From assembly GCA_026991575.1 (NCBI GenBank), contig JALXBF010000133.1, positions 1-47,272 of the forward strand: a stretch of 47,272 nt of DNA, read 5' to 3'. Every line of letters begins with the position of its first letter. Position 1 is the stretch's first letter. The notes under the pieces were generated by a model. The model saw only the letters and a program-made list of their open reading frames with translations, did not search any database and was not told the origin of the DNA. The translations under genes were made by a program, and so were the position numbers. The DNA comes from Planctomycetota bacterium. GTDB taxonomy: Bacteria; Planctomycetota; Planctomycetia; JALXBF01. Below, in pieces: positions 4,963 through 46,833 of the stretch.

Positions 4963-5244
4963 TCAGCAGCAGTCTCTCGCACTGCGGGTGTCCTCCTCCC
5001 CTTGCCCGCCGGCCATTGGCGGGAAGATCGACAGCGTCTGGCCTTCGCTAAGCGGCTGGTCCAATTGTGGGCAGTGCTCGCCATCGATCATCACAATGCG
5101 AGCCATCTCCTCGGGGACCTGCAACTGCTTCAGCACGTCGCGCACGGTCGCCCCTTCGGGCAGTTCCAGTGTGGCCTGGCTGCCCGCGGCCCCTTCGGGC
5201 AGATACTTCCGTAGCGAGGCAAACAGCTTCACCTTCACCTGCAC
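4963..5244 (-). CDS. aorD: MoaD/ThiS-like sulfur carrier of the aldehyde oxidoreductase operon (AorD)
   Basis: This 93-residue protein has the ubiquitin-like MoaD fold pattern: VKVKLFASLRKYLP at the start, a LPEGATVRDVL helix and the SEGQTLSIFPPMAGG end. MoaD family proteins carry sulfur as a C-terminal thiocarboxylate on a terminal Gly-Gly to build molybdopterin, here presumably the tungstopterin of AorB. Unusually the Gly-Gly is not terminal: 13 residues follow (QGEEDTRSARDCC). It is the last gene of the aor operon, 50 bases after aorC, matching aorD of Aromatoleum. A MoeA-like aorE is not present next to it. Whether the tail must be clipped, as for CysO or QbsE, is open. Confidence 0.85.
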   Translation of the reverse strand: MQVKVKLFASLRKYLPEGAAGSQATLELPEGATVRDVLKQLQVPEEMARIVMIDGEHCPQLDQPLSEGQTLSIFPPMAGGQGEEDTRSARDCC

Positions 5245-5294
5245 AGCGGGCCTCCTGTTGTTTTGACTGAGTCGCGCGCCTGTGGAAGCGGTCG

Positions 5295-6695
5295 CTAGCT
5301 GTGCCCGAATACTTTCCGGTAGGCCTCCACGAATACCTTGTGGTGGGGGCCCTTATCCGTCTCGACGTCTGGCTCAGCCGGCAGGGGCCGCACACGTGGA
5401 TCGTCCGACGGCAACGGCAGCAACGTCCGCTTGAGCAGTCTTGTTGCCACTCCCAAGGCGACGTAAGGACGGCGCAGGTCCAGCGGATGAGTCTCCTTCA
5501 GGTAGGTCTTCCACTCACCCATGGCGATACCGGTTTGCACGAGCCCTTTGACCATACCGATGTCGGTCAAATTCATGATGTCGCCGGTTGGTCCCATGAG
5601 GATGCCGCCTACCATGCGGTCGCCGTCAAAGACGTACTTTCGATACAGAGGTCGCGCTGGATTCGCGAGCCGCACGATGTCGTCCTCACCATCCCAGCGG
5701 CCGAAGCTGGCGATTTGAAGGCCGCAAACGTCCAGCACGTTCATTGACAGCGACCCGTCGTAGCGGACGTCCTGGCCAGCCATGTTGGCTCCGGCCACGC
5801 GGCCGTGGTCGATTGCCGTGGGTTGGATTGCATGTACCTCCTTGCCTCCCAGCACACTCGGTCCCTGAGCGCAATCGCCCGCGGCGTAAATGAACGGGTA
5901 ATTGGTTTGCAGCCGCTCGTTAACCACAATGCCCTCGTCAACTTCAACGCCGCTGCCACGGACAAAGGCCACGTTGGGCCGAACGCCGGCGGCGATCACG
6001 ACGCAGTCGGCCGGGATCCGATCGCCTGCTGTTAGCTCCACGGCAAGCGCACCGTCATGTTGCAGAATCCGTGCTGCCTGGGTGCCACAGCGTACGTCGA
6101 CGCCGCGTTTTGCTAACCAGTCGGTGGCGAGCCGGGCGGCTTCGGCATCGAGCATGCGCGGCAGGATCTGGTCCATCATCTCGATGACCGTTAGCGAACA
6201 GCCCCGTTTGTACAGGGCGTTGAGCACGATCATGCCCACGAACCCGGCTCCGATAAACACCACTCGCTTGCCTTGGCCGGTGTGCTCGATCAGGCGGCGT
6301 GCATCCTCGATGGTCCAGAGGTTGGTCACGCCAGGCAGATCAAGCCCTTCGATAGGCGGTCGAACGGGCGACGAACCGGTGGCGATCAACAGCGTGTCGA
6401 AGTGGAGCGTCGTGCCGTCGGACAGCGTGACCGTCTTGCCGTCCGGATCGATCCGCTCGGCCCGCACGCCGATGTGCGGCGTCACGCCGAACTTCTGGAA
6501 CACATCGTCACCCCCAGTGTAAACGTGGCTCTCGGGGACATCGCCACAGATGTAGTAGGGCAGCACCATGCGAGCGTATGGGGGTTCGTCGCAGACCAGA
6601 TGGATCTCCGATCCTTCGGGCTCGAACCGCCGGATCGTCTCGATCGCGTGCATGCCGGCAGGCCCGGCTCCCACGATAACATGACGCTTGGCCAT
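5295..6695 (-). CDS. aorC: FAD/NAD(P)-dependent oxidoreductase subunit of aldehyde oxidoreductase (AorC)
   Basis: This 466-residue flavoprotein has the two-dinucleotide-binding-domain fold: the FAD site VIVGAGPAGMHA at about 6-17, the TLLIATGSSP turn, a second Rossmann motif VVFIGAGFVGM near 150, and the FAD-closing IYAAGDCAQ near 290. In the Aromatoleum AorABC enzyme the matching subunit passes electrons between the iron-sulfur chain and NAD. GGGAGAGGAC precedes the ATG by about six bases, and aorB ends 17 bases upstream, so the genes are co-transcribed. The C-terminal 110 residues resemble the dimerisation region of nitrite- or rubredoxin-reductase-like enzymes. The NAD(P) choice cannot be read with certainty. 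The family is secure; the role as AorC rests on context. Confidence 0.85.
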   Translation of the reverse strand: MAKRHVIVGAGPAGMHAIETIRRFEPEGSEIHLVCDEPPYARMVLPYYICGDVPESHVYTGGDDVFQKFGVTPHIGVRAERIDPDGKTVTLSDGTTLHFDTLLIATGSSPVRPPIEGLDLPGVTNLWTIEDARRLIEHTGQGKRVVFIGAGFVGMIVLNALYKRGCSLTVIEMMDQILPRMLDAEAARLATDWLAKRGVDVRCGTQAARILQHDGALAVELTAGDRIPADCVVIAAGVRPNVAFVRGSGVEVDEGIVVNERLQTNYPFIYAAGDCAQGPSVLGGKEVHAIQPTAIDHGRVAGANMAGQDVRYDGSLSMNVLDVCGLQIASFGRWDGEDDIVRLANPARPLYRKYVFDGDRMVGGILMGPTGDIMNLTDIGMVKGLVQTGIAMGEWKTYLKETHPLDLRRPYVALGVATRLLKRTLLPLPSDDPRVRPLPAEPDVETDKGPHHKVFVEAYRKVFGHS

Positions 6696-6712
6696 GATGC
6701 TGTCCTCTCCCG

Positions 6713-8584
6713 TTAGCCAAAGACTTCTTCCAGATTCAGTTCACTCACCTTCGCGCTGGTTGGCGTGCCGGTTTCGTCCCAGCCGCGTAGCCGGTAGTAC
6801 TCCGGCAGCATCTCGTGCAATCGGTTGACCTGCCCTCTGCTCGGCCCGGCCGGAATCGGCGCGCGCAGCAGGCGGTCCGGCAGGGTGTCATCGGCGCCAG
6901 TGAAGCCGGCGCGCAGCAGCCAGAGCCGTTCCAGGTTGAAGATTCGCTCGCCGGCCCGAATCACTTCCTCCAGCGTGTAGTCCACGCCGGTGGCTGCGGC
7001 GAGCATGGGCACAAGGTCTTCCAGCTCGGCCCCGAACGACACGAACAGGCAGATACCGCTGGCGTCGATGCTGCTGGTTGCGTCTTGAAGCTTTTTCTGC
7101 AACGCTGCCTTGCCGGCCGTGGTGCGAGGATTCAGTTTCTCGGGGACGCCAAGGATTTCAGCCTTCACCGAGTATCCCTTCAGGTGGCAGCCGCCTCGAT
7201 TTGAGGTAGCGTAGCCGAGCCCCATGCCCTGAATGGCGCGAGCGTCGTAGGCGGGGAACTCCATTCCCTTGCTGCCCATAAACAGCTCTGGATGTCCGTA
7301 CCGTTCACACAAGCGTTTAGCTCCCTCGGCAAGCTGGTCGCCGAACCCGCGGCGCAAGGCAGTTGCCTCAGTGAATGCCACCAGTGCATCGGCATCGCCG
7401 AAGCAGAGCGGGCGCCCGGTGACGGAATCGTCCAGGTAGCCGCGCTCGTATAACTCCATGGCCGCCGCCAGTGTCGCGCCGAAGCTGATCGGGTCCATGC
7501 CGTAGTCGTTGCACAGGAAACTGGCCTTGAGCACCGCGTCCATGTCGTCGACGTTCGTATCGGCACCCAGCGCCCAGATGTTCTCGTACTCGGGCCCCTC
7601 CTCGGCAGCCCGCCAGTTCCGGGGCGACGTCAACACGGCGTGACGAACCCGGCCATCCTCTGAGACGCGGGTCACGCGGCCGCAGGCAATCGTGCAGGCA
7701 AAGCATGCTTTGTTCCGCAACGTGTAGCGTGCCTTCAGGGTCTCGCCGCTGATGCGCTCCGCGTCACTGCCGGTCTCGTCGGGAGCCATGTGCGCGAATT
7801 GCCAGTTCTTTACCGGCAGCGCGCCGGATTCATTGATCACGTGCACCAGCACAGCTGTCCCGAAACCAGGCAGCCCCTCGCCGGTCACCGGGCTGGCACG
7901 CAGCTTCTGGCGGAAACGCCACTGGGCGGCAAGGAACTCGGCCGGCCGAGCAATGGGCACCCCCCGTGTGCCCCAAACCGCAATCGCCTTCAGCCGCTTT
8001 GCGCCCATGACCGCACCGACCCCGTTGCGTCCAGCGGCGCGGTGGAGGTCGTTCATAATGGCGGCGAAACGAACAAGGTTCTCGCCCGCCTGGCCAATGC
8101 TTGCGATCCGGACCCCTGGCAGGCCCACCTCCTCCCGGATTCGCTCCTCAGTTTCCCAGACCCCCTTGCCCCAGAGATGCTCCGCGGATCGGACTTGGAC
8201 CTGGTCGTCGACGATCAGCAGGTACACGGGCCGCTGGGCCTGTCCCTCGATGATTAGCAGATCGTAGCCGGCGAACTTCAGGGCCGGTCCCCAGTGGCCG
8301 CCGGAATTGGACGTTGTGATCGTGCCGTTGAGCGGGGCCTTGGTGATCACCATGTAGCGGGCGCCGCAGGAGGCGCTGGTCCCCGTCAGCGGACCCGTGG
8401 CGAAGATAAGTTTGTTGTGCGGGCTGAATGGATCGATTGTCGGGTCAACTTCGGCACAGAAGTATCGGGCGCCCAAGCCCCGACCGCCGATGAACGCGCG
8501 GGCCCAATCCATGCGGAGCGGTTCCACCGTGCAGGAACCGTCTGAGAGGTTGACGCGCAGTAGCCGCCCGGCCCAACCACCCAT
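6713..8584 (-). CDS. aorB: Tungsten-containing aldehyde:ferredoxin oxidoreductase (AorB)
   Basis: This 623-residue protein is a full-length AOR family enzyme, which interconverts aldehydes and carboxylic acids at a bis-tungstopterin. The N-terminal domain shows the family run ATGPLTGTSASCGARY at about 62-77, GRNGVGAVMGAKRLKAI at about 185-201 and a 4Fe-4S motif CxxCxxxC at Cys294, 297 and 301, with the fourth ligand at Cys512 in DASGIC. The GPEYE segment (330-334) and the GLGYATSNRGGCHLKGY segment near 455-471 match cofactor and active-site parts of the family. AGGAG lies nine bases before the ATG. It sits between aorA (21 bases upstream) and aorC (17 bases downstream), as in the AorABC complex. 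The substrate cannot be told from sequence; AOR enzymes of this type take many aliphatic and aromatic aldehydes. Confidence 0.93.
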   Translation of the reverse strand: MGGWAGRLLRVNLSDGSCTVEPLRMDWARAFIGGRGLGARYFCAEVDPTIDPFSPHNKLIFATGPLTGTSASCGARYMVITKAPLNGTITTSNSGGHWGPALKFAGYDLLIIEGQAQRPVYLLIVDDQVQVRSAEHLWGKGVWETEERIREEVGLPGVRIASIGQAGENLVRFAAIMNDLHRAAGRNGVGAVMGAKRLKAIAVWGTRGVPIARPAEFLAAQWRFRQKLRASPVTGEGLPGFGTAVLVHVINESGALPVKNWQFAHMAPDETGSDAERISGETLKARYTLRNKACFACTIACGRVTRVSEDGRVRHAVLTSPRNWRAAEEGPEYENIWALGADTNVDDMDAVLKASFLCNDYGMDPISFGATLAAAMELYERGYLDDSVTGRPLCFGDADALVAFTEATALRRGFGDQLAEGAKRLCERYGHPELFMGSKGMEFPAYDARAIQGMGLGYATSNRGGCHLKGYSVKAEILGVPEKLNPRTTAGKAALQKKLQDATSSIDASGICLFVSFGAELEDLVPMLAAATGVDYTLEEVIRAGERIFNLERLWLLRAGFTGADDTLPDRLLRAPIPAGPSRGQVNRLHEMLPEYYRLRGWDETGTPTSAKVSELNLEEVFG

Positions 8585-8605
8585 GGCGATCCGCTCCTGA
8601 GCTTC

Positions 8606-9091
8606 TCAGGCTACGCCTTCGAGCATCTCCCGGAAACGCGCCGAGACTTGCTCGGCTAGCCGGCCGGTCCACTCTTCGCCGTTGGACGTTTCACCCACCG
8701 TGATGCACTCCGTGGGGCACGCCAGTGCACAGGCCGGCTCGCCACCGCACAGGTCACACTTGGTCGCTTTGTGGTCAGGCCGCAAGAACGCCGTCCCAAA
8801 CGGACATGCGATCACGCACAACGCACAGCCGACACAGACCTGCTCCAGAACAACCTTTGCTCCGGTAACAGGGTTGATCGCAATCGCATTCACCGGGCAG
8901 ACCGTCATGCACCACGCTTCGTTGCACTGGAAGCAGGTGTACGGCGTGTAGGCGGCTTGCTCGTCAAAGATGTGTACCTTGATCAGGGACGCAGCTGGAT
9001 TGAACCGCCCCGTTTGCACCCAGGAGCATGCCAGCTCGCACTGCATACAACCAGTACATTTATCCGGGTCGATTCGCAACGCTGTAGCCAT
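8606..9091 (-). CDS. aorA: Polyferredoxin subunit with four 4Fe-4S clusters (AorA)
   Basis: This 161-residue protein holds four Cys groups: CTGCMQCELAC, CFQCNEAWCMTVCP, CVGCALCVIACP and CDLCGGEPACALACP. They fit four 4Fe-4S clusters of the DmsB/HycB-like type. It has no signal peptide, so it is cytoplasmic. In Aromatoleum the AorA subunit stacks into filaments that bind several AorB units and wire them to one AorC; the length and cluster number here match. The start at 9091 was chosen because AGGAGGA lies about nine bases upstream; the longer frame to 9154 would overlap the previous gene and adds an Arg-rich tip. It transfers electrons between AorB and AorC, or an outside ferredoxin. Confidence 0.88.
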   Translation of the reverse strand: MATALRIDPDKCTGCMQCELACSWVQTGRFNPAASLIKVHIFDEQAAYTPYTCFQCNEAWCMTVCPVNAIAINPVTGAKVVLEQVCVGCALCVIACPFGTAFLRPDHKATKCDLCGGEPACALACPTECITVGETSNGEEWTGRLAEQVSARFREMLEGVA

Positions 9092-9119
9092 CGCGCCGAG
9101 CTCCTCCTGGAGTTCCGGT

Positions 9120-9389
9120 TCATGGTGCCGACGAGCCCGAATCGGCCGCTTCACCCGAGGAAGCAGACTGCTGCGGTTCCTCGGGCAGCGTAACGAAGCG
9201 GTCGGTAAACTGCAACCAGTAGCGACCGTCCACGAGCTTCAGCATGAGCTTCATGCCGTGGCATCGGGCGCATTCGTAGCCGGTCATGCCGTGCTCCATC
9301 GGCCCGCTGTAGCCGCAATCCGCACAACGGCCGAGTACTTTCTTGGCCTTCTTTTCGAAGTCGTGGTACGAAGGTACCGAGCCGATCAT
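9120..9389 (-). CDS. Small zinc-ribbon protein leading the aor operon
   Basis: This 89-residue soluble protein has a Lys-rich helix (10-18), then CADC (22-25) and CARC (40-43) separated by 14 residues, the layout of a zinc ribbon, and an acidic, Ser-rich tail. It lacks a signal peptide, so the CARCH string is more likely zinc-binding than heme-binding. The ATG at 9389 has CAGGAGA seven bases upstream; a frame to 9431 would start inside the promoter. aorA begins 28 bases after its stop. No family function is known to me. As first gene of the operon it may be a maturation or regulatory factor, which is inference. Confidence 0.65.
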   Translation of the reverse strand: MIGSVPSYHDFEKKAKKVLGRCADCGYSGPMEHGMTGYECARCHGMKLMLKLVDGRYWLQFTDRFVTLPEEPQQSASSGEAADSGSSAP

Positions 9390-9431
9390 CGGCGGTCTCC
9401 TGGATCGATGCCGCTCGCGCAGCAGTAGCAC

Positions 9432-9460
9432 AGTGTACCGGAAGGACGCCTTGGTTTAAA
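9432..9460 (-). promoter_or_regulatory. Promoter of the aor operon
   Basis: On the minus strand TTTAAA (9460-9455) and TACACT (9437-9432) are 17 bases apart, each four of six to sigma70 consensus. An AT-richer patch (ATATC) lies just upstream. The -10 box ends 43 bases before the ATG of the zinc-ribbon gene at 9389. No clear operator dyad was seen. Confidence 0.4.
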
Positions 9461-23292: not shown

Positions 23293-23503
23293 CGCTCACC
23301 TCACCAAGGCCACTTGCCGCTGTCCTGCTTAATCCTACTGGAGTTTGCCCAATTGTCCACGCGATCGCATGCAGTCTCGCCTGCCGATCCATGCACCCGT
23401 CCGGGGCGACCGCCCACAGGAACCCCAAAGGCCTGCTGCCAGTGGACGGCCGCAGGGTGCAGGTCGCGGTGGGCCGGTTACACGGATTTTGACGAAAGTG
23501 CCG

Positions 23504-23520
23504 ATCGGTCATCGACCGAT
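23504..23520. promoter_or_regulatory. Operator-like dyad before the SMC-like ATPase gene
   Basis: ATCGGTC and GACCGAT form a perfect 7 bp inverted repeat around three bases. TTGACG (23490-23495) lies nine bases upstream and could be a -35 box, placing the dyad in the promoter spacer. It sits in the 321-base divergent gap between the response regulator and the ATPase. The binding protein is unknown. Confidence 0.35.
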
Positions 23521-23613
23521 ACCGTTAGCAGGAGTCTCCTGCCGTCGCCAGTGCCGGCCCCACTTGCCCGAGAGGCGCATGCCGATGACCCGAATCGCTG
23601 GCGAACAGATCCG

Positions 23614-26600
23614 GTGACCGAGCGCGCCGAGGATGCTGCACACATCGTTCGCTACCACCGCCTGACGCTCGCCGGGTTCGGCCGCTACGAGCGGCCTACT
23701 CGGTTCGAGTTGGGGGGGCGATCGCGGGTATTCACCGCCAATAACGAGCGGGGCAAGACGACCTTCGTCAAGGGCCTGCACTACACACTGTTCGGGTCAC
23801 CGCCGGGCAAGAAGCGCGAGACATTTCGACGCAAGTACTGGCACTGGTCCAAGCCGAAGCAGTTCTGGGGTGAACTGGAGTTTACCGTCGGGACCACCGT
23901 CTGGCGCCTGCGACGCGATTTCCGGCGCGACACGGTTTGGGTTTACCGGCTTGAGAACCAGAAGGCGGAGCCTGTACTCGACGGTGTCAAGCACCGGCAG
24001 AAGACGCGCCCCGAACCGGAACACCCCTACGCGACGCTGCTCCGCGAGTGGTTTGGGCTGGACAATCCCGAACTGTTCGACGCACTCTTCTGCATCAACC
24101 AGCACTCGGCCGTGCTCCTGCGAGCCCAGATCGACGAACGGCTCTGGCAGCACGTGTACGGCAACGCAGCCCGGGAACTGGAAGCCAGACGTGAGGTGCT
24201 CTTCCAGCAATTCCGCCAGCTCACGTGTCGGACGCGCGATTTCGGCATCAGCCTCGGCAGTCGCGGTGGTCGTAACGGCCGCAACCAGGGGCGCATCGAG
24301 GAGCTGGAAGGCGAGCTGGGGCAGCTGCGGCGCGAGCTGTCTGAGTTAGACGAGCAGCACCAGCAGTTGCAGGCCCGGGTGAACGAGCTGAGTGACCGGC
24401 TTGCTCGGCTGCAGGCGTCCCGCACCGCGGCCGAACAACTACCCGGGTGGCGCCGCTGGTTGGAGCTTCAGCAAGCGCTGGTCGCCGAGGTTGCGCGCTT
24501 GGAAAAAGCCGCGCCGCTACGCGCGCACCTGGCCCAGCAGCCCGACGGTGGGCACCTGGCCTGCCAACTGGCAGAACTACTGGACGAATTGGGGTTAAGC
24601 CACGAGGACCCAGCCACGCTCGCCCATGCGGTCGACCGCTATGCGAGCTGGCGACAGGAACGCGAAGCGCTCGAAGTTGAGCTGGAGCGGCTCCAGCAAC
24701 AACGACGTTCGCTAGCAGCGGAGCTGGAGCAGCTTCGCCGCGAGTGTGAGCGGCTCAGCGATGTGGCCGGGCGTCCGGAGTTGCCCGAACAGCTGAGCCG
24801 CCTTCGCGAGCTCTCCGCCGAGCTACGGCGGCTCGAGGCCTTGCACCGCGAACTGGCTGCCCAGGCCACCGAACGCGATCGGATGGAGCAGCAGCAACGC
24901 GAAACCCTGCTGAAGAGCCTGCGCAAGTACCGGGACGCGGCCCGCCGCATCGCTGCACTGGACGAGCGGCGCCAGCAGCTGAAGACACACCTGGAAGAGC
25001 TCACCTGCCAGCTGGCCAAGTGGCAAGATGCCCTTCACCGCGCGCAAGAGGCCCACGAACGGGCAATGCAAATGCTACAAGACAACGAGGCGGCGCTCCG
25101 CTCGGCTCAAGAGGAACGCGACCAGGAACGGCGTCACCTCAGCGAACTGGAGCAGGAACTGAAGAGGCGGTTTCCCCTGCTCTGCGAGGCGCCTCCAGAA
25201 CTGCCTAAACTCTGGGACCGGCTGAGGGCCCTGCACCAGGAGCGGGAACAGATCGATCGCAGCCAGCAGCGGCTGGACGTCCAGCTCCGCGTCGCGCGGT
25301 CTCGGTTGAAGTGGCGTCGAGGATTGCTGGCTGCCGGGTCGCTGACGACACTGGCCATCGCGTGCGTCGGCCGCGACCTGATCGACTGGTCCTGCGCCGC
25401 AATTGCCCTTGCCCTGACCCGGGCCTCGGCCGGCGCCTTTCCCGTACCCAGGATCGCGATGCTCGAAGAGCAGACGGCCGAGCTGCGCCAGCAGCGGCGA
25501 ACCGTTGAACGGGAGATCGCATCGATAACCGCCATGCTCGGCGAAAGGTTCCGGCCAACTCGGGAACTGGAGACCGAAGTGCGTGCTAGCTGGGAAGATT
25601 ACCGCCGCATGGTGCAGCAGATCGAACAGCTTCGCCAGTCGATCGCACGGCGGAAGTCGTTGGCTGCCACAGAGGAACATGCCGCCTCGGTACGCCGTGA
25701 ACTGGAAGAGACGGCGGCCAGCGCCGCGGAAGAAGCTGCGGCAGCCCGCCAGCGCATCGAGGCCCTGACCGAAGAAGCCGGCCAGTGCAGGCAGGAGCTT
25801 GAACGACTGGAAGCAGAACGGCAGGACGCCGTCGGCATTTTCGGGGACGGGCGGGTCAGGACTCATGCGGCCGAACTACTCGACCAGTCCGCCGGTGCAG
25901 TCCTCTTCGAGGCAGGTTTGATTAGCCCGGACGACGACCTGGATGGTGTCATTTCAGCGCTGGCCACCATCGATGACGCGACCCTGGAGGACCTTGTCGG
26001 AAAAGCGACCGAGAAGGCAGACACCGAACTGGCGGCGACCGTTCAGTGGCGCCGAGAAGTGTGGTGGAGCTGGGTGAATCTCGGGTTCGACCGTGCTGGT
26101 TCAGACCCGGCGTCAGATCCGCCGGAGCAATTCGACGCGGATGACGCCGTCGAGGAGCTACGTCGCAGACGGGCTCAGCTTGCTGAGGCCGTGGCCCCAT
26201 TCGACGAGACAACTGACGAGGCCGACCTGCGCAAGCAGCTGGAGGAGTACGAGGCGACACGTGAGCTGGTCGCGGAGGCCGAGCGGGAGCTGCATCAGCT
26301 CGACGAGCGGATCGCCGAAACCCAGGCGCGCCTGCAAGAGTGCCTCGCAGAGTGCCCCGGGGAGGCTGACCGGCTGGAGCGGTTGCTGAACGAGTACGGC
26401 AACAGCGTCGCCGTCTTTGCCGACCATTGTGAACGACTGCAACAGTGGCGGGCCTGGTCGCAGGAGCTGGAGCGACTTGCTGACGAAGCGAAACTGACGG
26501 CAGACGAGAACTTACCCCAGCAACTGGAAGCGCTTGAGGAAACCGTTGAGCACCTTCGCGCACGGTCGCGAGCACTGCTGGAGCAGTTCCCGTTTCTGGC

Positions 26601-27267
26601 GGAAGCGCTCCAGCAGCCGCTCGACTTTGCCGAGCGTCGCGTCCGCGAGCTCGAGGAGCTTGTCGCCGGGGTGGACACGGACATGGCCGAGCAGCAAGCA
26701 GAGCTGGACCGATTACGCCAGGAGCTTGCCGACGTCACGGCCCGGCGCAACGCCCTGAACGACCGGATCCGGGCCGCGGAACGGGAGTTGGCTGCCTTGC
26801 AGGATCAGTGTGCGGCGGTGGTAGCAGCATTTCGCGAGACGAGCGATCGACTCGAAGAACTCCAGGCAGCAAAGCGACGCGAGCTGGAGGAGGCGATCAG
26901 TCGGTATTTTGCTCGGTTCAGTTGTCATCCCGAGCGTCGTGTCGTGCTGGACGAAGCGTTTCGGATTCAGATCAAAGAAGGTCCCGATCGCGTGTACTAT
27001 CCGGCCCACCTGAGTCACGGTGCCCGGGATCAGCTGTGTTTGAGTGTGTACCTTGCGCTGGCCGGCAGCCTGGATTTGCCTTTTCTTTTCGATGATCCGT
27101 TCGTGAACTGCGATCGGGAACGCCTCGAGGCGATAGCCGTGTGCTGGCAACAGCTCAGCTCCGAGCGTCAGTTCATCTTGCTGTCACACTCGGAGCAGTT
27201 TTCCGATTGGGCCGAGCCGATTGGGATTTCAGAACTCGGCGCCGGCTCGTTGCGACCGGCCGCATGA
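23614..27267 (+). CDS. Large SMC/Rad50-like coiled-coil ATPase, YhaN/AAA_27 type
   Basis: This 1217-residue protein has the head-coil-head build of Rad50/SbcC relatives. At the N-terminus RLTLAGFGRYE leads into a P-loop TANNERGKTTF (41-51), a variant of the usual GPNEAGKST. Then about 900 residues of Glu/Arg/Gln-rich coiled coil follow, broken near 570-605 by two hydrophobic stretches (LLAAGSLTTLAIACVG and SCAAIALALT) that look like a membrane hairpin, as reported for YhaN-like ATPases. At the C-terminus are the signature LSHGARDQL and Walker B PFLFDDPF, then the SHSEQF switch His. The GTG at 23614 was chosen because coding quality drops upstream, where the frame (open to 23314) is of mixed composition. 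It probably works at DNA ends or membranes, with an SbcD-like nuclease partner that is not in this window. Confidence 0.85.
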   Translation: MTERAEDAAHIVRYHRLTLAGFGRYERPTRFELGGRSRVFTANNERGKTTFVKGLHYTLFGSPPGKKRETFRRKYWHWSKPKQFWGELEFTVGTTVWRLRRDFRRDTVWVYRLENQKAEPVLDGVKHRQKTRPEPEHPYATLLREWFGLDNPELFDALFCINQHSAVLLRAQIDERLWQHVYGNAARELEARREVLFQQFRQLTCRTRDFGISLGSRGGRNGRNQGRIEELEGELGQLRRELSELDEQHQQLQARVNELSDRLARLQASRTAAEQLPGWRRWLELQQALVAEVARLEKAAPLRAHLAQQPDGGHLACQLAELLDELGLSHEDPATLAHAVDRYASWRQEREALEVELERLQQQRRSLAAELEQLRRECERLSDVAGRPELPEQLSRLRELSAELRRLEALHRELAAQATERDRMEQQQRETLLKSLRKYRDAARRIAALDERRQQLKTHLEELTCQLAKWQDALHRAQEAHERAMQMLQDNEAALRSAQEERDQERRHLSELEQELKRRFPLLCEAPPELPKLWDRLRALHQEREQIDRSQQRLDVQLRVARSRLKWRRGLLAAGSLTTLAIACVGRDLIDWSCAAIALALTRASAGAFPVPRIAMLEEQTAELRQQRRTVEREIASITAMLGERFRPTRELETEVRASWEDYRRMVQQIEQLRQSIARRKSLAATEEHAASVRRELEETAASAAEEAAAARQRIEALTEEAGQCRQELERLEAERQDAVGIFGDGRVRTHAAELLDQSAGAVLFEAGLISPDDDLDGVISALATIDDATLEDLVGKATEKADTELAATVQWRREVWWSWVNLGFDRAGSDPASDPPEQFDADDAVEELRRRRAQLAEAVAPFDETTDEADLRKQLEEYEATRELVAEAERELHQLDERIAETQARLQECLAECPGEADRLERLLNEYGNSVAVFADHCERLQQWRAWSQELERLADEAKLTADENLPQQLEALEETVEHLRARSRALLEQFPFLAEALQQPLDFAERRVRELEELVAGVDTDMAEQQAELDRLRQELADVTARRNALNDRIRAAERELAALQDQCAAVVAAFRETSDRLEELQAAKRRELEEAISRYFARFSCHPERRVVLDEAFRIQIKEGPDRVYYPAHLSHGARDQLCLSVYLALAGSLDLPFLFDDPFVNCDRERLEAIAVCWQQLSSERQFILLSHSEQFSDWAEPIGISELGAGSLRPAA

Positions 27268-28745: not shown

Positions 28746-30974
28746 TCACTTCCGGCGCCAGAGCCTCCGAGGTGGCAGTAGGCCGCGTTCCAGATCACGC
28801 ACCCAGGCCTGCAGGGCGCGCTCCTGGGGCATGTCCGGGTTGTAACCGTGGTCTTCGCCGGTGAGTTCCTTCAGGGTCATGATGGCTAATTGCCGCACGG
28901 AGAGGTCAACGTCGGGTTGAAGCAGCTCAATCAGCGCGGCGTACAGCTCCCGGTCCCGAGCCGCCGCGTCCGGGACGCCATTGAGCAACATGACAACCGC
29001 ACCAGCCTTGCCGACACGAAGCTGATCCAGGGCTCCCGTGGGCTTTCCCTGTCCGTCCGCCTGGTCCGCAGGCGGCCGTCCGACGAACACCCGATAGACA
29101 CTTTCTGCAAGGTGGGCGTACTCGGCCGGACCAAGCGCCAGGTACCAGCGGAGCCAGCGGATTGCCTCCAGCCGCAGGAAGACCGACTCGGTGCTGTTCA
29201 GCATGCGCACGACCGGATCCAGTCGTCCGAGTGCCACGAGCGAACGAAGGGCCAGCGCACGGACATTCTCATCTTGCTCCGCGTCGTGCAGGATCTCCAG
29301 CAGTCGCGGCGGTAGTCGCCCTTCGCGAGGCAACTGCTTGAGAAACTGCCGCAGAGAACGTCGCTGTGCGGCAGGCAGTGCTCGGCCACTGATCCATTCC
29401 GGCTCACCCTCCCCGAGCCGATCACGTAGCACGATGGTTCCACGGTCGGAGCGGTAGATAACGTCCTTGCCCGGATCTAACTTGACAGTCTCCTTCGCCT
29501 CATAGCTCACCGAGATCTCGAGCGTCTGCTCCGCCTCTTGCTGCTGCGCCCCTCCACCGTCAGCATCCGGCTTGTGTCCCTGCTGCGCGTCGGCCGCCGG
29601 TTCGACGTTCGGTTCCAGTACCGTCAGCACGACACTGCCGCTGACCGGCACGAACACGGCCTCCAGGGCATGCGGGCCTCCGGGCACGTAGACCGGTTGG
29701 AACCGCATCGCCAGTCGGGTATCGGTCGCCCGGGCGTCAATCAGGAACGCCACGCCAGCAGGGGTGGTGACCAACAATTTGGCCGGCACCGACTCAGCCC
29801 GTAGCAGGACCTGACCGAAGCCAAGGTCAAGCGTGCGGACACCGGCTGGTAGCGCTCCCCCGGGCGACGTTCCCCATATCCAGCCGGTCAGGTCGACGGC
29901 ATCGGCGATCCAGGGCCTGACGACCAGCCGCGTTCGCACGCCCTCCAGGTTGACCATGGGCGTGGTTGGTGGCACGGGGCTTTCTCGAGAAACGGCAACC
30001 CAGTCGCCCACCGTCTCGTCGTAAACGACGGCGATGTGCGTGCTGCCGGCCAGCATGGCAAACGCCCGCTCCGAGCGGGACGCAGCGGAAGGGGTGGCCG
30101 CAGGAGCGGTCGCTGCGCCGGCGCGCGCGCTTTCGGCAGCATCGGCACGGGCCTCCGACACGTCGCCGGCTTCGGGTTCACCGGCTGGCCTGGCCGGTTC
30201 GTCGCCGCCGACCGTGGGCTGCATGGGGGAGTCAGAACCGGCCGGCTGCCTGGCCTGCCGCTTAGCGTCGCCCTCGTCCGCTTCCTCGTCCACGGACGGA
30301 GGCGTTGGTTCGGTCTTCGCCGCCGCCGCCGCCGACTCAGGCGTCTCCGTCTTCTTGGCCGACGCGGCCGCACGGCCGGAATCGGCCACGGCCTCCCGGT
30401 CGACCTTCTGAGCCTGCGCTATCGCTTCCGGTGGACGAGCCGTTCCGTAGAACCGGTCGTAGGCTACCTTGCCCACAAAAAACGCCGCCACGAGCAGCAT
30501 GCCAGTGATGAGGACCCAGGGCAACAGCCGCGGCTGCTGGAAGGTCATCGGGGGACTAACGCTCGGCAGCCGCTCGGCCTCCTCACGAAGCTCTAGCTCG
30601 TTGAGGACAAGCCTGGTCAGGCGCAACTTCGTCTCTTCGCTGACATGAGCCGGCTGCCCCAGCATGGTCAGGATCTGATGGCAGGCGGCCACCTCGGCCA
30701 GCTCTCGGTCAGAGCGAAGGCATTCCGCCTCAAATGCGGCAACTGTTTCCTTCTCGAGTACGTTGTCCAAGTATTCCGCAACGACGTTCGCGTCGACTGT
30801 CGTGCTCAGTGGTCGCGGTGCAGACAGCCGCCGGGTTCGGATCACGCGGCGGATCCGTTCGATGAGATCCTGGGCAAAGTCGCTCTCGTCGACCTTCTGA
30901 CCGATATCCCGCGCGGTCTGGGCGTCGAGCGTGTCGTCGATGTACGCCAGGAGCGTTCTAAGCGTTAGCCGCAT
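28746..30974 (-). CDS. Membrane-anchored protein with anti-sigma-like N-terminus and HEAT-type repeats
   Basis: This 742-residue protein starts with about 120 cytoplasmic residues in two short modules (LRTLLAYIDDTLDAQ and VVAEYLDNVLEKE), a pattern seen in planctomycete anti-sigma-like proteins, but without the zinc His/Cys set. One membrane helix (about 150-170, LLPWVLITGMLLVAAFFVG) follows. The outside part begins with an Ala/Glu/Pro-rich linker, then beta-rich domains at about 290-500 and, from about 520, helical Leu/Arg-rich repeats like HEAT. The start at 30974 was chosen because TGAGGAG lies eight bases upstream; a GTG three codons earlier sits on that box. No sigma factor gene is adjacent. 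It may link envelope state to gene expression, which is inference. Confidence 0.6.
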   Translation of the reverse strand: MRLTLRTLLAYIDDTLDAQTARDIGQKVDESDFAQDLIERIRRVIRTRRLSAPRPLSTTVDANVVAEYLDNVLEKETVAAFEAECLRSDRELAEVAACHQILTMLGQPAHVSEETKLRLTRLVLNELELREEAERLPSVSPPMTFQQPRLLPWVLITGMLLVAAFFVGKVAYDRFYGTARPPEAIAQAQKVDREAVADSGRAAASAKKTETPESAAAAAKTEPTPPSVDEEADEGDAKRQARQPAGSDSPMQPTVGGDEPARPAGEPEAGDVSEARADAAESARAGAATAPAATPSAASRSERAFAMLAGSTHIAVVYDETVGDWVAVSRESPVPPTTPMVNLEGVRTRLVVRPWIADAVDLTGWIWGTSPGGALPAGVRTLDLGFGQVLLRAESVPAKLLVTTPAGVAFLIDARATDTRLAMRFQPVYVPGGPHALEAVFVPVSGSVVLTVLEPNVEPAADAQQGHKPDADGGGAQQQEAEQTLEISVSYEAKETVKLDPGKDVIYRSDRGTIVLRDRLGEGEPEWISGRALPAAQRRSLRQFLKQLPREGRLPPRLLEILHDAEQDENVRALALRSLVALGRLDPVVRMLNSTESVFLRLEAIRWLRWYLALGPAEYAHLAESVYRVFVGRPPADQADGQGKPTGALDQLRVGKAGAVVMLLNGVPDAAARDRELYAALIELLQPDVDLSVRQLAIMTLKELTGEDHGYNPDMPQERALQAWVRDLERGLLPPRRLWRRK

Positions 30975-31058
30975 GAGGTTCACTCCTCAGGAGCAGGCTC
31001 TGGCCCCTCGTTAGGATTAGTGCAGCGCGGGAGCCCGCTTCGTACACGCAGTCGAGAA

Positions 31059-33197
31059 ATGGCCGGAACACTCTCTGTCTGGTGCCAGGCGTCAGCTCTA
31101 CTTCTGCCGCTTCTGATCGGGGCCTGGCTGCTTGCCCGGCGCCTCTGTCCGCTTGCCTGTTGGCCGCTACGGACGGCGGTCGGCGCCGTCTGGACGCTCT
31201 GCTGGATCGTGCTGGTTCCCCAGCTGGCAACCATCACCGGCGTGTGCTTTGACTACCGCCTTGCACTGACTGCCGCCTGGTTCTGGGCAGCCGCGGCCGC
31301 CGTGGCCTACCGGCTCAAGCACCCGGCGGGCCGACGTCCTCGGGGTCGGTCGGCTCGCCTTGCGCCGAGCGTGGCGGTAGCCGTAGCTGCTGGGGCCGTG
31401 ATCGCGGTCTTTTATTTGTGCAAGGCCGTCTGTGAGCCGGTGTACGTGGCCAGCGACGCCCCGATTTACCACCTGCCGTTCGCCATCGAGTGGGTTCAAC
31501 AGGGCCGGATCGTGTTGGTCCCGACCCCGTTCGGCGAGCAGGCTGCGACCTACTTTCCGGCGAACATTTCGCTCTGGTACGCCTGGCTTATCCTGGCCAC
31601 TGGCAATGAGTACCTGGCCAAAGCCGGTCAGTGGCCCTTTCTGTTGCTGGGTGCCATCGCACTGTACGGTGCCGCCAGATTGCTTGGCCACCGCAGCGAC
31701 GCCGCGGCGACGGCCGCGCTAGCCTGGTCGCTCGCGCCCCACGGGCTCTTCTTCAGTGCCATAGCTATCGCGGACGTTGCCGTGGCGGGGTTGTACCTCA
31801 GTGCGGTTGCCCTTCTGCTGGCCTGGCGCCGGTATCGCCGGTTCGTGTTCCTGGTAACGGGTGGCTTGGCACTTGGGCTGGCAACCGGGTCGAAGCTGAT
31901 TGCACTGCTGTTCACGGGACCGTTGGCTGCCGCCACCCTCTGGCAACTGTTCGTCCGCCCCGGGGCCCGGTTCACGCGGGCGTGCCTGTTTTTGTTAGCG
32001 CTGGCAGTCCCGTGCGCGTACTGGTTCGCGCGCAACTGGTTGCTGACGGGCAACCCGGTTTACCCCACGCACGTAGCGCTGTTCGGCACAGTCATCTTCC
32101 AGGGCTGGTACGACCGTGCGGCGCTTGCCACAAGCCGCTATCACATCGATCCGGGCAACTGGGTGGCCGCGGTGGCGATCCTGGCGCGTCTGGTGCGGTG
32201 GTGGTTGCTGCCAGTCTTGCTGGCGGCCTGGATGTGGATGCTGATGCGGAGACGCCAGGCGGAATGGCTGGCGCACTGGATTGTCGCCGCGTTGCTGTTC
32301 TGGTTCGTGAATCCGTATCAGACGCAGGAGCGCTTCCTGCTCGGGCCGCTGGGATTGGCGTACTTGCCGCTTGCCGCGCTGCTGGATCGCTGGCGGTGGT
32401 TGGCACCAGTGGTGGCCTGGGCAAGCATCCTGCAGACGGCGCTGCCCCAGCTGGACGTATGGCAGGTGCTGGGCAGGCCCGATCTGGTGCTCTTCCCGCC
32501 GTTCCCGCCACTGATCACGGTCGGCTGGTTAATGACTGGGCCGGTGGCTACGGCCGGGGTTATCGCCGTGCTGCTTGTGTTGGCCTGGGGCGTGGGGCGT
32601 TGGCATTTGACGGTGGCTGGCGCTAGTGTCGTTGCCGTCGGTCTGGCGATCGCTCTGCTGCCCGATCCACTGGTTCGTTTCGTCCGGTCATCACGTCCGC
32701 TGCGGTTCTATCCGGTCTGGGATCATACGGATGGATGGTGGGCCTTGGAACGGGCCAGTCCGCCGGAGGGACGCACGGTGGCGTACGCGGGCACCAACCT
32801 GCGGTACTACTTGTACGGCATAGGATTTCGCAATCGTGTCGTGTATGTGAACGTGAACCGATGGCGTGGTTTCTTGATGCATCGATTTCACCGATTGGTT
32901 GCGGAGCGGGGCGAGCCCCTGGCCGATGGTACCCGTCCTGACTGGGACCGGCGTGAACCGGATCGTGCCGCGTGGTTGGCGAACCTATCGGCGGCCGGCG
33001 TGGAGCTGTTGTTTGTCACGACGGTGAACGTGCGCGGTGGCCTGCACTATGTCCACGATCGGGAGGGATTTCCAATAGAACGAAGCTGGGCAGACGGTAT
33101 GCCCGACCGGTTTCAGCGGCTGGCGTGGGGCCGTGACTGGGTGTTGTATCGGGTGCTTGTGCCGGTCGGGGAGGCCAGGGGGGAGTCACGACCATGA
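31059..33197 (+). CDS. GT-C type membrane glycosyltransferase-like protein
   Basis: This 712-residue protein has about 12 hydrophobic segments and one extended loop after the third or fourth helix with ASDAPIYHLPFA, which fits the acidic, His-containing first loop of lipid-phosphate-sugar-dependent transferases (ArnT/PMT/GT39-like). A 180-residue soluble C-terminal domain follows the last helix (from about 530). Such enzymes move sugars from polyprenyl phosphates to proteins or lipids on the outer face of the inner membrane. The start is not certain: ATG 31059 has no good ribosome site, and a GTG at 31020 is possible. The last four bases overlap the ZIP gene (ATGA), so the two are coupled. 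The substrate is unknown. Confidence 0.65.
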   Translation: MAGTLSVWCQASALLLPLLIGAWLLARRLCPLACWPLRTAVGAVWTLCWIVLVPQLATITGVCFDYRLALTAAWFWAAAAAVAYRLKHPAGRRPRGRSARLAPSVAVAVAAGAVIAVFYLCKAVCEPVYVASDAPIYHLPFAIEWVQQGRIVLVPTPFGEQAATYFPANISLWYAWLILATGNEYLAKAGQWPFLLLGAIALYGAARLLGHRSDAAATAALAWSLAPHGLFFSAIAIADVAVAGLYLSAVALLLAWRRYRRFVFLVTGGLALGLATGSKLIALLFTGPLAAATLWQLFVRPGARFTRACLFLLALAVPCAYWFARNWLLTGNPVYPTHVALFGTVIFQGWYDRAALATSRYHIDPGNWVAAVAILARLVRWWLLPVLLAAWMWMLMRRRQAEWLAHWIVAALLFWFVNPYQTQERFLLGPLGLAYLPLAALLDRWRWLAPVVAWASILQTALPQLDVWQVLGRPDLVLFPPFPPLITVGWLMTGPVATAGVIAVLLVLAWGVGRWHLTVAGASVVAVGLAIALLPDPLVRFVRSSRPLRFYPVWDHTDGWWALERASPPEGRTVAYAGTNLRYYLYGIGFRNRVVYVNVNRWRGFLMHRFHRLVAERGEPLADGTRPDWDRREPDRAAWLANLSAAGVELLFVTTVNVRGGLHYVHDREGFPIERSWADGMPDRFQRLAWGRDWVLYRVLVPVGEARGESRP

Positions 33198-44358: not shown

Positions 44359-46833
44359 TCATCGGCTCGAAACGCCTTCGCCGTCGTCGTCGCCGGCTTC
44401 CATCTCACAGCGTTGCGCCCGTGCGCAGGCATCGATCAGGGCTTTGACCGCGTAAGCCCATAGCTCCCCTCGCAGACACGCTTCCGGGTCGTCAGTCAAC
44501 CGCGGCCACTTGTCGCACTTGCCGCCCAGCACCTGCCACACGGTCGCGGGCTCCTGGAAGAGGGCCATGCATCGCTTCAGTGCGTCGCATTCGGCTGCGT
44601 GCCAGGTTCGTCGTCTACGAGGGGTCTCAGTCACGCGCTTCAGCCATCCGCGCACCAGGGCGGCGTCGTCGAAGGTGCTCACCCGGTGAACCACTGCGCG
44701 AAACGCCAGGATCTCGCTCATCGCCGGCACACTTCGCCGGCCAACAATCTGCCAGCCAAGAACGCGGCGGCGCTCGGCCGGGTCCGCAGCCAAAGCGCGA
44801 GCAGCACGGTCGACGAGCGAGCGCCACGCCTCCCGCTCGATTAGACGGGCAAAGCGGTAGCCGTCGCTGTCCTTACTCAGCCGAGCCCGTTGTTGGGTAC
44901 TGTCGGCTCCGGACGGAAGCCGCTCCGTCAATTGCCAGCTCCGGCCCGACCGCGTCAGGATCGGATCGTTGAACCGAACGTCCCCGAAGCCTTCGGCAGT
45001 TCGCTCCCCTAGCCCCATGATCGTCAACTGCGCCAGGCGCTGCCGATCGACCTTGCCCGCAGTCACCTCAAACATGGCGCACGAACCCGCGCGCAGCGCC
45101 ACCAGAGACGGCCGGGGCAACCGCCAGCCGGTATGCCACGTCTCGTGACGACGCACCCGCAGCCGACTCTTCACCGCGCGAAGCTCCACGCCCAGTGCCT
45201 GCTCCAGCGCCCGCTGCAGCCCGCCCAGTGTTGCGTCGTAGCCGAGTCGGTCGTTGCGAACGAGCAGGTCCGAGACGAGCCAGACAGCGAGTCGCTTTCG
45301 TCGGCAGCCTGGGACGGTCGGCAAGCCGTCAACCGGTGGATCTGCCGATACGTACGCCGCCCCATGGTCCTGCTGCTTTGACCGACCCAGCCAGATTGGG
45401 CCGCTGAACGCCTGCCACCAGTCCGTTCGTGCGCGCTGCAATCGATCCGCAAGTTCGCCGGGCAGAACCAGCTCGCTCCGCAGCACGGTCCGCGAGCCGC
45501 CGGCACCGGGTGCGATTGCTTCGAAAAAGCCGACGGTCGTTGGGCCGATGGCTTGTTCGTCGTCATCCACACCGAGTGAAGCTGCCGTGCAGATCGTCAT
45601 GGGCACGCGGCGGTACTCTAGCCGGCGTTTATCGACGTAGGCCACGTAACCTTGTTCGATCGGTTCAGTGAGGATGTCGCTGGCCGAGTCCGCCACCTCC
45701 CGGTCGTCGACGAACGCATTGCGTAGGCGGCACGGCAGGTTCGCGCAGCCCGCCCTCTCGTTGCACGCTTCAATCGCCAGCGGAGCCGGTAGTCCGCGTT
45801 GGCCGGCGACGTCCACAGTGGCGTTCAGAACGCGGATCCGGCCCGCGGCAACTTCCGGGAACAGCTCCCATGGTGCAATGCCCAGCGAGCGCAGCACGCG
45901 CGTGACGTGTGGCAAGAGGCAGTAGCCGGGGACATAGTCCAGCGATCTGTCAATCCCCCCTGCCTTGGCGAAGCAGACTGCGACCGTGCTCTCGAGTGTG
46001 ACCGTCAGCGGAACTCGGACGGGCGTATTCCGGTCGCGCCGCTGCAGCACAGGTACAAGCAAAGGCTGCTTGGGTCCACAAGCTGCCTGTTCCCAGTCGG
46101 GAGGTGCTGTTCTGAGAAGCTCGCACACCCGGTCGATGGACATCAGCTCAGCGTTGTGACCTGAACCGTCCTCGGCAAAGACGGTGACGTGGCAGATCCC
46201 AGCATGCTGACCTGACGAGCGGTCGGAACCGAGCCGGGTCAGCAGCCAACTGCCCGCGACGAGGAGTGCCACCGCATGGTCGCGGATGGTGGCGGGCACG
46301 CGCAGCGTGGCACTGGCCCAGAGCTCGCTGCCTGCTCGCGCGTACTCGAGGCTCCCTCGGCAGCCGCGGTCCAAGCTGCCTGGTCCTGATGGCTGCCCAT
46401 CGGCAGTCCATTTGATGAACGTCGTCGCTCTCCGAGCGATCTCGTCATGTGTCAGGACTGCCCGCAACGCTACAGGGTAGCGCGCTGCTCGGACCTCCAG
46501 CACTGACTGGCCTGACAGGACGATGTGCCCGTCTGGCAAGCACCGAGACGTCCCGTTGCTTCGGCAGTGGAAAAGGCACGCGGCCAGTCGCGACCACGGG
46601 CCATCGTGGCGACCGCGGTCCAGTGCGCGGGCGACCAGCATGCACGCTTCGCGCCACAGGGAACGGAGAAGCTTGCCGGGCACGTAAGGCAGACCGTCTG
46701 GGTCTCGAGCAATGACGCCGTCGTGCTGCGGAGAGCGGTTGCTGGGCGCCGCGGTGCGCCACTCCGAGCGCATCACCAGGCGGATCGCCATCGAAACGGT
46801 CACAAGCTGGTTGCTGCCGTTCGAACCGCTCAC
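44359..46833 (-). CDS. Type III CRISPR effector protein: Cas7-like RAMP domain fused to Csx10-like module
   Basis: This 824-residue protein holds two RAMP units. Unit one (about 10-220) resembles Csm3/Cas7: HDGVIARDPDGLPYVPG (37-53), where Asp38 lies at the position of the target-cleaving Asp33 of Csm3, and a Gly-rich loop LGSDRSSGQHAG (201-212). Unit two (about 273-630) resembles Csx10: LDYVPG near 298-303, GFFEAIAPG (435-443), WLGRSKQQDHG and the terminal Gly-rich loop GLGERTAEGFG (607-617). A helical C-terminal part of about 190 residues follows. Csx10 is the Cas5-like subunit of type III-D complexes that bind crRNA and cut RNA. The start is GTG, overlapping the stop of a small ORF upstream. 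No cas10, cas6, cas1/cas2 or array is in the window; such genes may lie to the right. Confidence 0.8.
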   Translation of the reverse strand: MSGSNGSNQLVTVSMAIRLVMRSEWRTAAPSNRSPQHDGVIARDPDGLPYVPGKLLRSLWREACMLVARALDRGRHDGPWSRLAACLFHCRSNGTSRCLPDGHIVLSGQSVLEVRAARYPVALRAVLTHDEIARRATTFIKWTADGQPSGPGSLDRGCRGSLEYARAGSELWASATLRVPATIRDHAVALLVAGSWLLTRLGSDRSSGQHAGICHVTVFAEDGSGHNAELMSIDRVCELLRTAPPDWEQAACGPKQPLLVPVLQRRDRNTPVRVPLTVTLESTVAVCFAKAGGIDRSLDYVPGYCLLPHVTRVLRSLGIAPWELFPEVAAGRIRVLNATVDVAGQRGLPAPLAIEACNERAGCANLPCRLRNAFVDDREVADSASDILTEPIEQGYVAYVDKRRLEYRRVPMTICTAASLGVDDDEQAIGPTTVGFFEAIAPGAGGSRTVLRSELVLPGELADRLQRARTDWWQAFSGPIWLGRSKQQDHGAAYVSADPPVDGLPTVPGCRRKRLAVWLVSDLLVRNDRLGYDATLGGLQRALEQALGVELRAVKSRLRVRRHETWHTGWRLPRPSLVALRAGSCAMFEVTAGKVDRQRLAQLTIMGLGERTAEGFGDVRFNDPILTRSGRSWQLTERLPSGADSTQQRARLSKDSDGYRFARLIEREAWRSLVDRAARALAADPAERRRVLGWQIVGRRSVPAMSEILAFRAVVHRVSTFDDAALVRGWLKRVTETPRRRRTWHAAECDALKRCMALFQEPATVWQVLGGKCDKWPRLTDDPEACLRGELWAYAVKALIDACARAQRCEMEAGDDDGEGVSSR

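Follow-up and report, generated by a model that had tools for sequence, protein, structure and literature searches.

A predicted class III tungsten aldehyde oxidoreductase operon of Planctomycetota belongs to a clade that has two AorB lines

The window analyzed here, a stretch of 47,272 nucleotides from a Planctomycetota bacterium (assembly GCA_026991575.1, contig JALXBF010000133.1), carries an operon that very probably encodes a cytoplasmic three-subunit class III tungsten aldehyde oxidoreductase (AOR) of the Aromatoleum AorABC kind, with electrons passed to NAD. The operon would extend this kind of AOR to Planctomycetota, inside a clade with an AorB duplication. The operon itself is an added class III member; new here is that its clade has two AorB lines, of which no description was found in the open-access papers searched. 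The conserved A-B1-B2-C operon of this clade lets one ask whether an enzymatic nanowire mixes two catalytic heads and what AorB2 oxidizes, a question that bears on using AOR filaments for acid reduction and for electron wiring.

Five genes run on the minus strand from 9389 to 4963 (Table 1), in the order zinc-ribbon, aorA, aorB, aorC, and aorD. The intergenic gaps are 28, 21, 17, and 50 bases, respectively, and a purine-rich Shine-Dalgarno-like stretch lies 5' of every one of the five starts. In Pfam searches, AorB matched AFOR_N (3e-82) and AFOR_C (1e-138), AorC matched Pyr_redox_2 (9e-61), AorD matched ThiS (7e-13), and AorA carried four ferredoxin clusters; these family assignments are far above chance. 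The five tightly spaced genes of the original prediction were therefore all located and their families confirmed. Its extent of 4963-9460 was right at the 4963 end, but the first gene starts at 9389 and not at 9460. A single promoter, also claimed, was not borne out: the promoter scan gave no sigma-70-like site 5' of the zinc-ribbon gene, and lpxB, encoded in the same direction, precedes that gene with a gap of 135 bases. The operon is flanked by lpxB and the gene of a DUF6666 protein, with no WorABC bifurcating module alongside. AorA most likely starts at the ATG at 9091; an alternative longer GTG frame runs into the zinc-ribbon gene.

Table 1. Genes of the predicted AOR operon, in operon order
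Product	Coordinates	Strand	Remark
Zinc-ribbon protein, 89 aa, two CxxC pairs	9120..9389	-	First gene of the run
AorA / WorS polyferredoxin, 16 Cys for four [4Fe-4S], C-terminal tail ~137-161	8606..9091	-	
AorB (AorB1 line) / WorL, tungsten bis-pterin and one [4Fe-4S] catalytic subunit	6713..8584	-	
AorC / WorN, FAD- and NAD-binding subunit	5295..6695	-	
AorD / WorX, MoaD/ThiS-like carrier	4963..5244	-	

The zinc-ribbon gene is an orphan. The matches of its product to C1_1 and Anti-TRAP were weak and under the cut-off, neither Pfam nor NCBIfam gave a family, and its fold model was poor (pLDDT 54.9). No relatives were found among 392 genomes of the phylum, a search of the 59 nearest genomes returned chance-level matches only, and no such gene was seen upstream of aorA at related loci. 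A role as conserved operon partner was rejected, the gene being absent from the other phylum genomes and from the aorA upstream regions of the relatives. Rfam and tRNA scans of the window gave no matches. Elsewhere in the window, the ORFs at 23314-27267, 28746-30983, 31020-33197, and 44359-46833 encode one 1317-aa AAA_23/SMC-like protein and three proteins of 725-824 aa without a Pfam match.

Compared with solved structures, AorB scored 712 bits against 9mqx, 694 against Aromatoleum 8c0z, and 663 against Pyrococcus furiosus 1aor (55%, 53.6%, and 53.7% identity, respectively). Judged by its subunits, 9mqx would be WOR1 of Acetomicrobium mobile. AorB thus scores slightly higher against a bifurcating WOR1 than against the Aromatoleum enzyme, but tree and insert favor Aromatoleum. 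The residue roles of AorB and AorC were taken from PMC10413684. In pairwise alignment with Aromatoleum AorB, R75, N92, G94, R181, and A182 are kept, as are the cluster cysteines 295, 298, 302, and 509 and the residues E331, D361, Y443, H464, Y468, D504, F511, and F514. The aromatic substrate clamp Tyr468/Phe511/Phe514 (Aromatoleum numbering) is therefore intact. His484, which one sentence of PMC10413684 names, is replaced by Arg; this was not taken as a mark against activity because other passages of that paper name His464, which is conserved here. Between cluster C301 and catalytic E334 (Aromatoleum C302-E331), AorB has the insert that marks three-subunit AORs and that is missing from 1aor, 9g7j, and 9mqx in the alignment.

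The best solved relatives of AorA and AorC are both chains of the Aromatoleum structure, 8c0z_C (9.6e-48) and 8c0z_E (3e-85, 43% identity), respectively. Across 12 relatives, none of the 16 AorA cluster cysteines varies. The FAD/NAD-site residues R42, M43, R180, and Q291 of AorC correspond to Aromatoleum R41, M42, R179, and Q294, all kept, and the C terminus of AorC is about 40-50 residues longer than in Aromatoleum. In NCBIfam, AorC scored best against PadH (epsilon) and AorA about equally best against PadI (beta); the likeness to these subunits of NADH-dependent phenylglyoxylate dehydrogenase is far under the curated cut-offs, and the catalytic enzyme differs. AorD has a GG followed by a 13-residue extension. 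The same arrangement was seen in MoaD-like proteins at L022 9746-10093 and L112 1175-1906, and most relatives end at GG. The extension suggests processing or loss of thiocarboxylation.

AorB trees were built with IQ-TREE from 61 and 40 rows. In both, AorB fell in the group of three-subunit AORs (97/96 with 22 rows and 99/98 with 28 rows), which takes in Aromatoleum and Campylobacterota and is apart from Pyrococcus AOR, 9g7j, and 9mqx. An inner clade (100/98) holds the window AorB with rows of Planctomycetota, Armatimonadota, Zixibacteria, Latescibacterota, Binatota, Myxococcota, and Chloroflexota. The AorA tree recovered the same organism set (96/97), and the AorC tree, weakly resolved, was compatible. 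The pattern that the original prediction named as its refutation, AorB grouping with archaeal single-subunit AORs while AorA and AorC group with unrelated enzymes, was hence not seen; 8c0z is also the best solved relative of both AorA and AorC. Because AorA groups with the same organisms as AorB and AorC is consistent with this, the operon appears to have been inherited as a unit.

Class III WORs (WorLSN) are defined in PMC13328260 (Putumbaka 2026). Here, WorL combines the two AFOR domains with a single [4Fe-4S] site, a WorS with four [4Fe-4S] clusters is encoded 21 bases upstream of worL, the gene of a WorN with FAD/NAD(P) domains adjoins worL, and no WorABC module lies alongside. By its sequence, the operon is placed in class III (WorLSN, NAD-type) as a new member, in Planctomycetota, which are not mentioned in the main text of PMC13328260 or PMC12096430. 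Among 392 planctomycete genomes, 12 had AorB relatives at E < 1e-130, and only five of those, this genome included, exceeded 700 bits; the enzyme is therefore rare in the phylum.

The closest known system is AorABC of Aromatoleum aromaticum EbN1 (PDB 8c0z), which shares the three subunits, their order, the cofactor ligands, the FAD/NAD residues, the insert after the cluster cysteines, and a MoaD-like gene downstream. It differs in sequence (53.6% identity for AorB, 43% for AorC), in the shorter tail of AorC, and in the AorA tail, which is divergent in the window. The Aromatoleum operon is aorABCDE, with no zinc-ribbon gene listed (PMC6365974); the aorABCD order claimed in the original prediction agrees, whereas aorE is absent from the window and a zinc-ribbon gene is extra. 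Unlike Aromatoleum, the window genome has a second class III AorB at another locus. The bifurcating class IV enzyme WOR1 of Acetomicrobium mobile, a nanowire of WorLS units, has homologs of AorB and AorA, but it has a WorABC bifurcating end module in place of the single FAD/NAD subunit and lacks the AorB insert. Pyrococcus furiosus AOR (PDB 1aor, class I) shares the catalytic fold and active site; in contrast, it has a single subunit type, is ferredoxin-linked, and lies on a separate tree branch.

The subunit set, gene order, complete cofactor ligands, and tree position are established at the level of sequence, and the AorABCD-like tungsten AOR assignment of the original prediction holds at that level. 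With subunit and cluster roles as in Aromatoleum (PMC10413684, PMC6365974), the tungsten bis-pterin of AorB would be the site where an aldehyde, as its hydrate, is oxidized to the acid. The electrons would then travel via the [4Fe-4S] cluster of AorB and all four AorA clusters to the AorC FAD and on to NAD+, the presumed acceptor. AorD probably serves in pterin sulfur transfer during cofactor assembly. The intact aromatic clamp argues for a broad aldehyde range.

The genome contains five AFOR-family genes: the operon AorB, a second AorB (AorB2), and those on C28, C105, and C130. Six matches were obtained, but those on C76 and C31 are halves of one gene, since they share an exact 127-base end. 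This gene, AorB2 (G000 C76:1-1565 and C31:24799-25205; L048, L051), encodes 614 aa, is 57% identical to the window AorB, and is split by the contig break; no aorA or aorC lies beside it. In the tree, it falls in a group of its own (99/96) together with the second AorB copies of Zixibacteria and Latescibacterota operons, unlinked copies of two other planctomycetes (G061, G130), and the only AorB of each of two A-B-C operons from planctomycetes (L016, G315).

In the phylum-level group of the Zixibacteria genome, AorB occurs in 16/16 genomes and two AorB in 15/16. All 13 further regions fetched from this group (L147-L159) have A-B1-B2-C on one strand, the arrangement also found at L011 6001-9696; at L014 3-3277, B1-B2-C is cut by the contig end. 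At L012 216-3461 (Chloroflexota), aorA is followed by two AorB, of which the second has no secure position within the B2 line. As a control, only two of 301 genomes of the group of that Chloroflexota genome gave a match at E < 1e-180. The only Zixibacteria-group genome with a single AorB (L122, G446:C996) has one in-frame TAA in AorB1, either a pseudogene or an assembly error.

Within one genome, B1 and B2 are 57-62% identical, about the B1 distance between phyla, and the AorB2 of this genome shares more identity with Zixibacteria B2 (64%) than with its own B1 (57%). Both observations point to an old duplication in this clade. Residues of 23 B1 and 20 B2 rows were compared in Aromatoleum numbering. 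In 20/20 B2 rows, Tyr468 is Trp, Asp498 is Asn, Asn248 is Asp, Val470 is Pro, and there is a deletion at Pro478. Phe514 is replaced by a smaller residue in most B2 rows (Ala in 18 in the final alignment); this change is weaker than that at 468 because the column hinges on the gap placement by a one-residue insertion, and the AorB2 of this genome has Phe in another alignment. B2 keeps all tested cofactor and catalytic residues and the class III insert. Since Tyr468 and Phe514 hold the aromatic ring of the substrate in Aromatoleum (PMC10413684), B2 should, judging from these replacements, differ from B1 in substrate.

It is quite possible, if short of an even chance, that one AorA wire capped by AorC bears both AorB1 and AorB2 and pools the electrons of two aldehyde classes, the second head being encoded at a distant locus in the planctomycete studied here. 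Either two kinds of aldehyde would be oxidized, or one compound would be oxidized while another is reduced. The tandem A-B1-B2-C operons of the 13 fetched regions and L011, along with L014 and L012, favor such an enzyme, as do the cofactor ligands, class III insert, and altered pocket of B2. B2 is presumably able to use AorA, since it occurs alone with A and C in L016 and G315, and each of the three planctomycetes whose B1 falls in the window subclade (this genome, G061, G130) also has B2. However, B2 is unlinked to aorA and aorC in these same three genomes, where it may act alone, and the second copy of L012 lacks a firm B2 placement. The missing AorA and AorC neighbors are also what speaks for AorB2 as a class I AOR in its own right, single-subunit and ferredoxin-linked, beside a single-headed AorABC. 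We consider this possible but less likely than not, the B2 line elsewhere sitting in A-B1-B2-C or A-B2-C operons. The AorB2 of this genome may instead share AorA and AorC with the window operon.

The filament determinant of the Aromatoleum enzyme is the AorA tail: removing AorA residues from 138 onward abolished polymerization there, and the helix-deletion variant still assembled AorABC (PMC10413684). An NAD-linked AorABC that does not polymerize and exists as discrete units of AorABC or Aor(AB)2C composition is accordingly conceivable, though we lean against it. The window AorA tail is poorly conserved past the equivalent position, where W-T-G is common to both proteins and the remainder is divergent, but its length is similar to that of Aromatoleum. 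The AorA fold model was poor (pLDDT 41.7), with a helix at 139-159 at low confidence. Since class IV WOR1, a more distant relative, builds a nanowire too (PMC13328260), a divergent tail need not exclude filaments, and AorAB units of the predicted NAD-linked AorABC may stack as in Aromatoleum.

Tungsten is the probable metal of this enzyme. Family searches of the genome found MoaA, three MoeA genes, MobA, and a TupA-like tungstate-binding protein (207 bits, the sole family match, below the 400-bit cut-off); of these, the TupA-like protein and the MoeA genes are consistent with a tungsten enzyme. Molybdenum is very improbable even though MobA suggests that Mo cofactor is made, because TupABC occurs in virtually all class I-IV WOR carriers (PMC13328260), a TupA-like protein is present here, and the Aromatoleum enzyme contains tungsten and no molybdenum (PMC6365974).

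Of the remaining AFOR-family genes of the genome, those on C105, directly before mobA, and C130 are more distant (loci L049 4731-7274 and L050 5634-7460). The C28 gene adjoins a ferredoxin-NADP reductase-like gene. At L047 4908-7858, an AOR-family gene, with a close relative at L067, is followed or overlapped by a ferredoxin-NADP reductase-like gene, with no polyferredoxin; this pair may be another NAD(P)-linked arrangement. At L082 1054-5225, a tandem moeA pair, one member of which is fused to a PBP-like domain, adjoins a formylmethanofuran--H4MPT formyltransferase gene of the C1 pathway.
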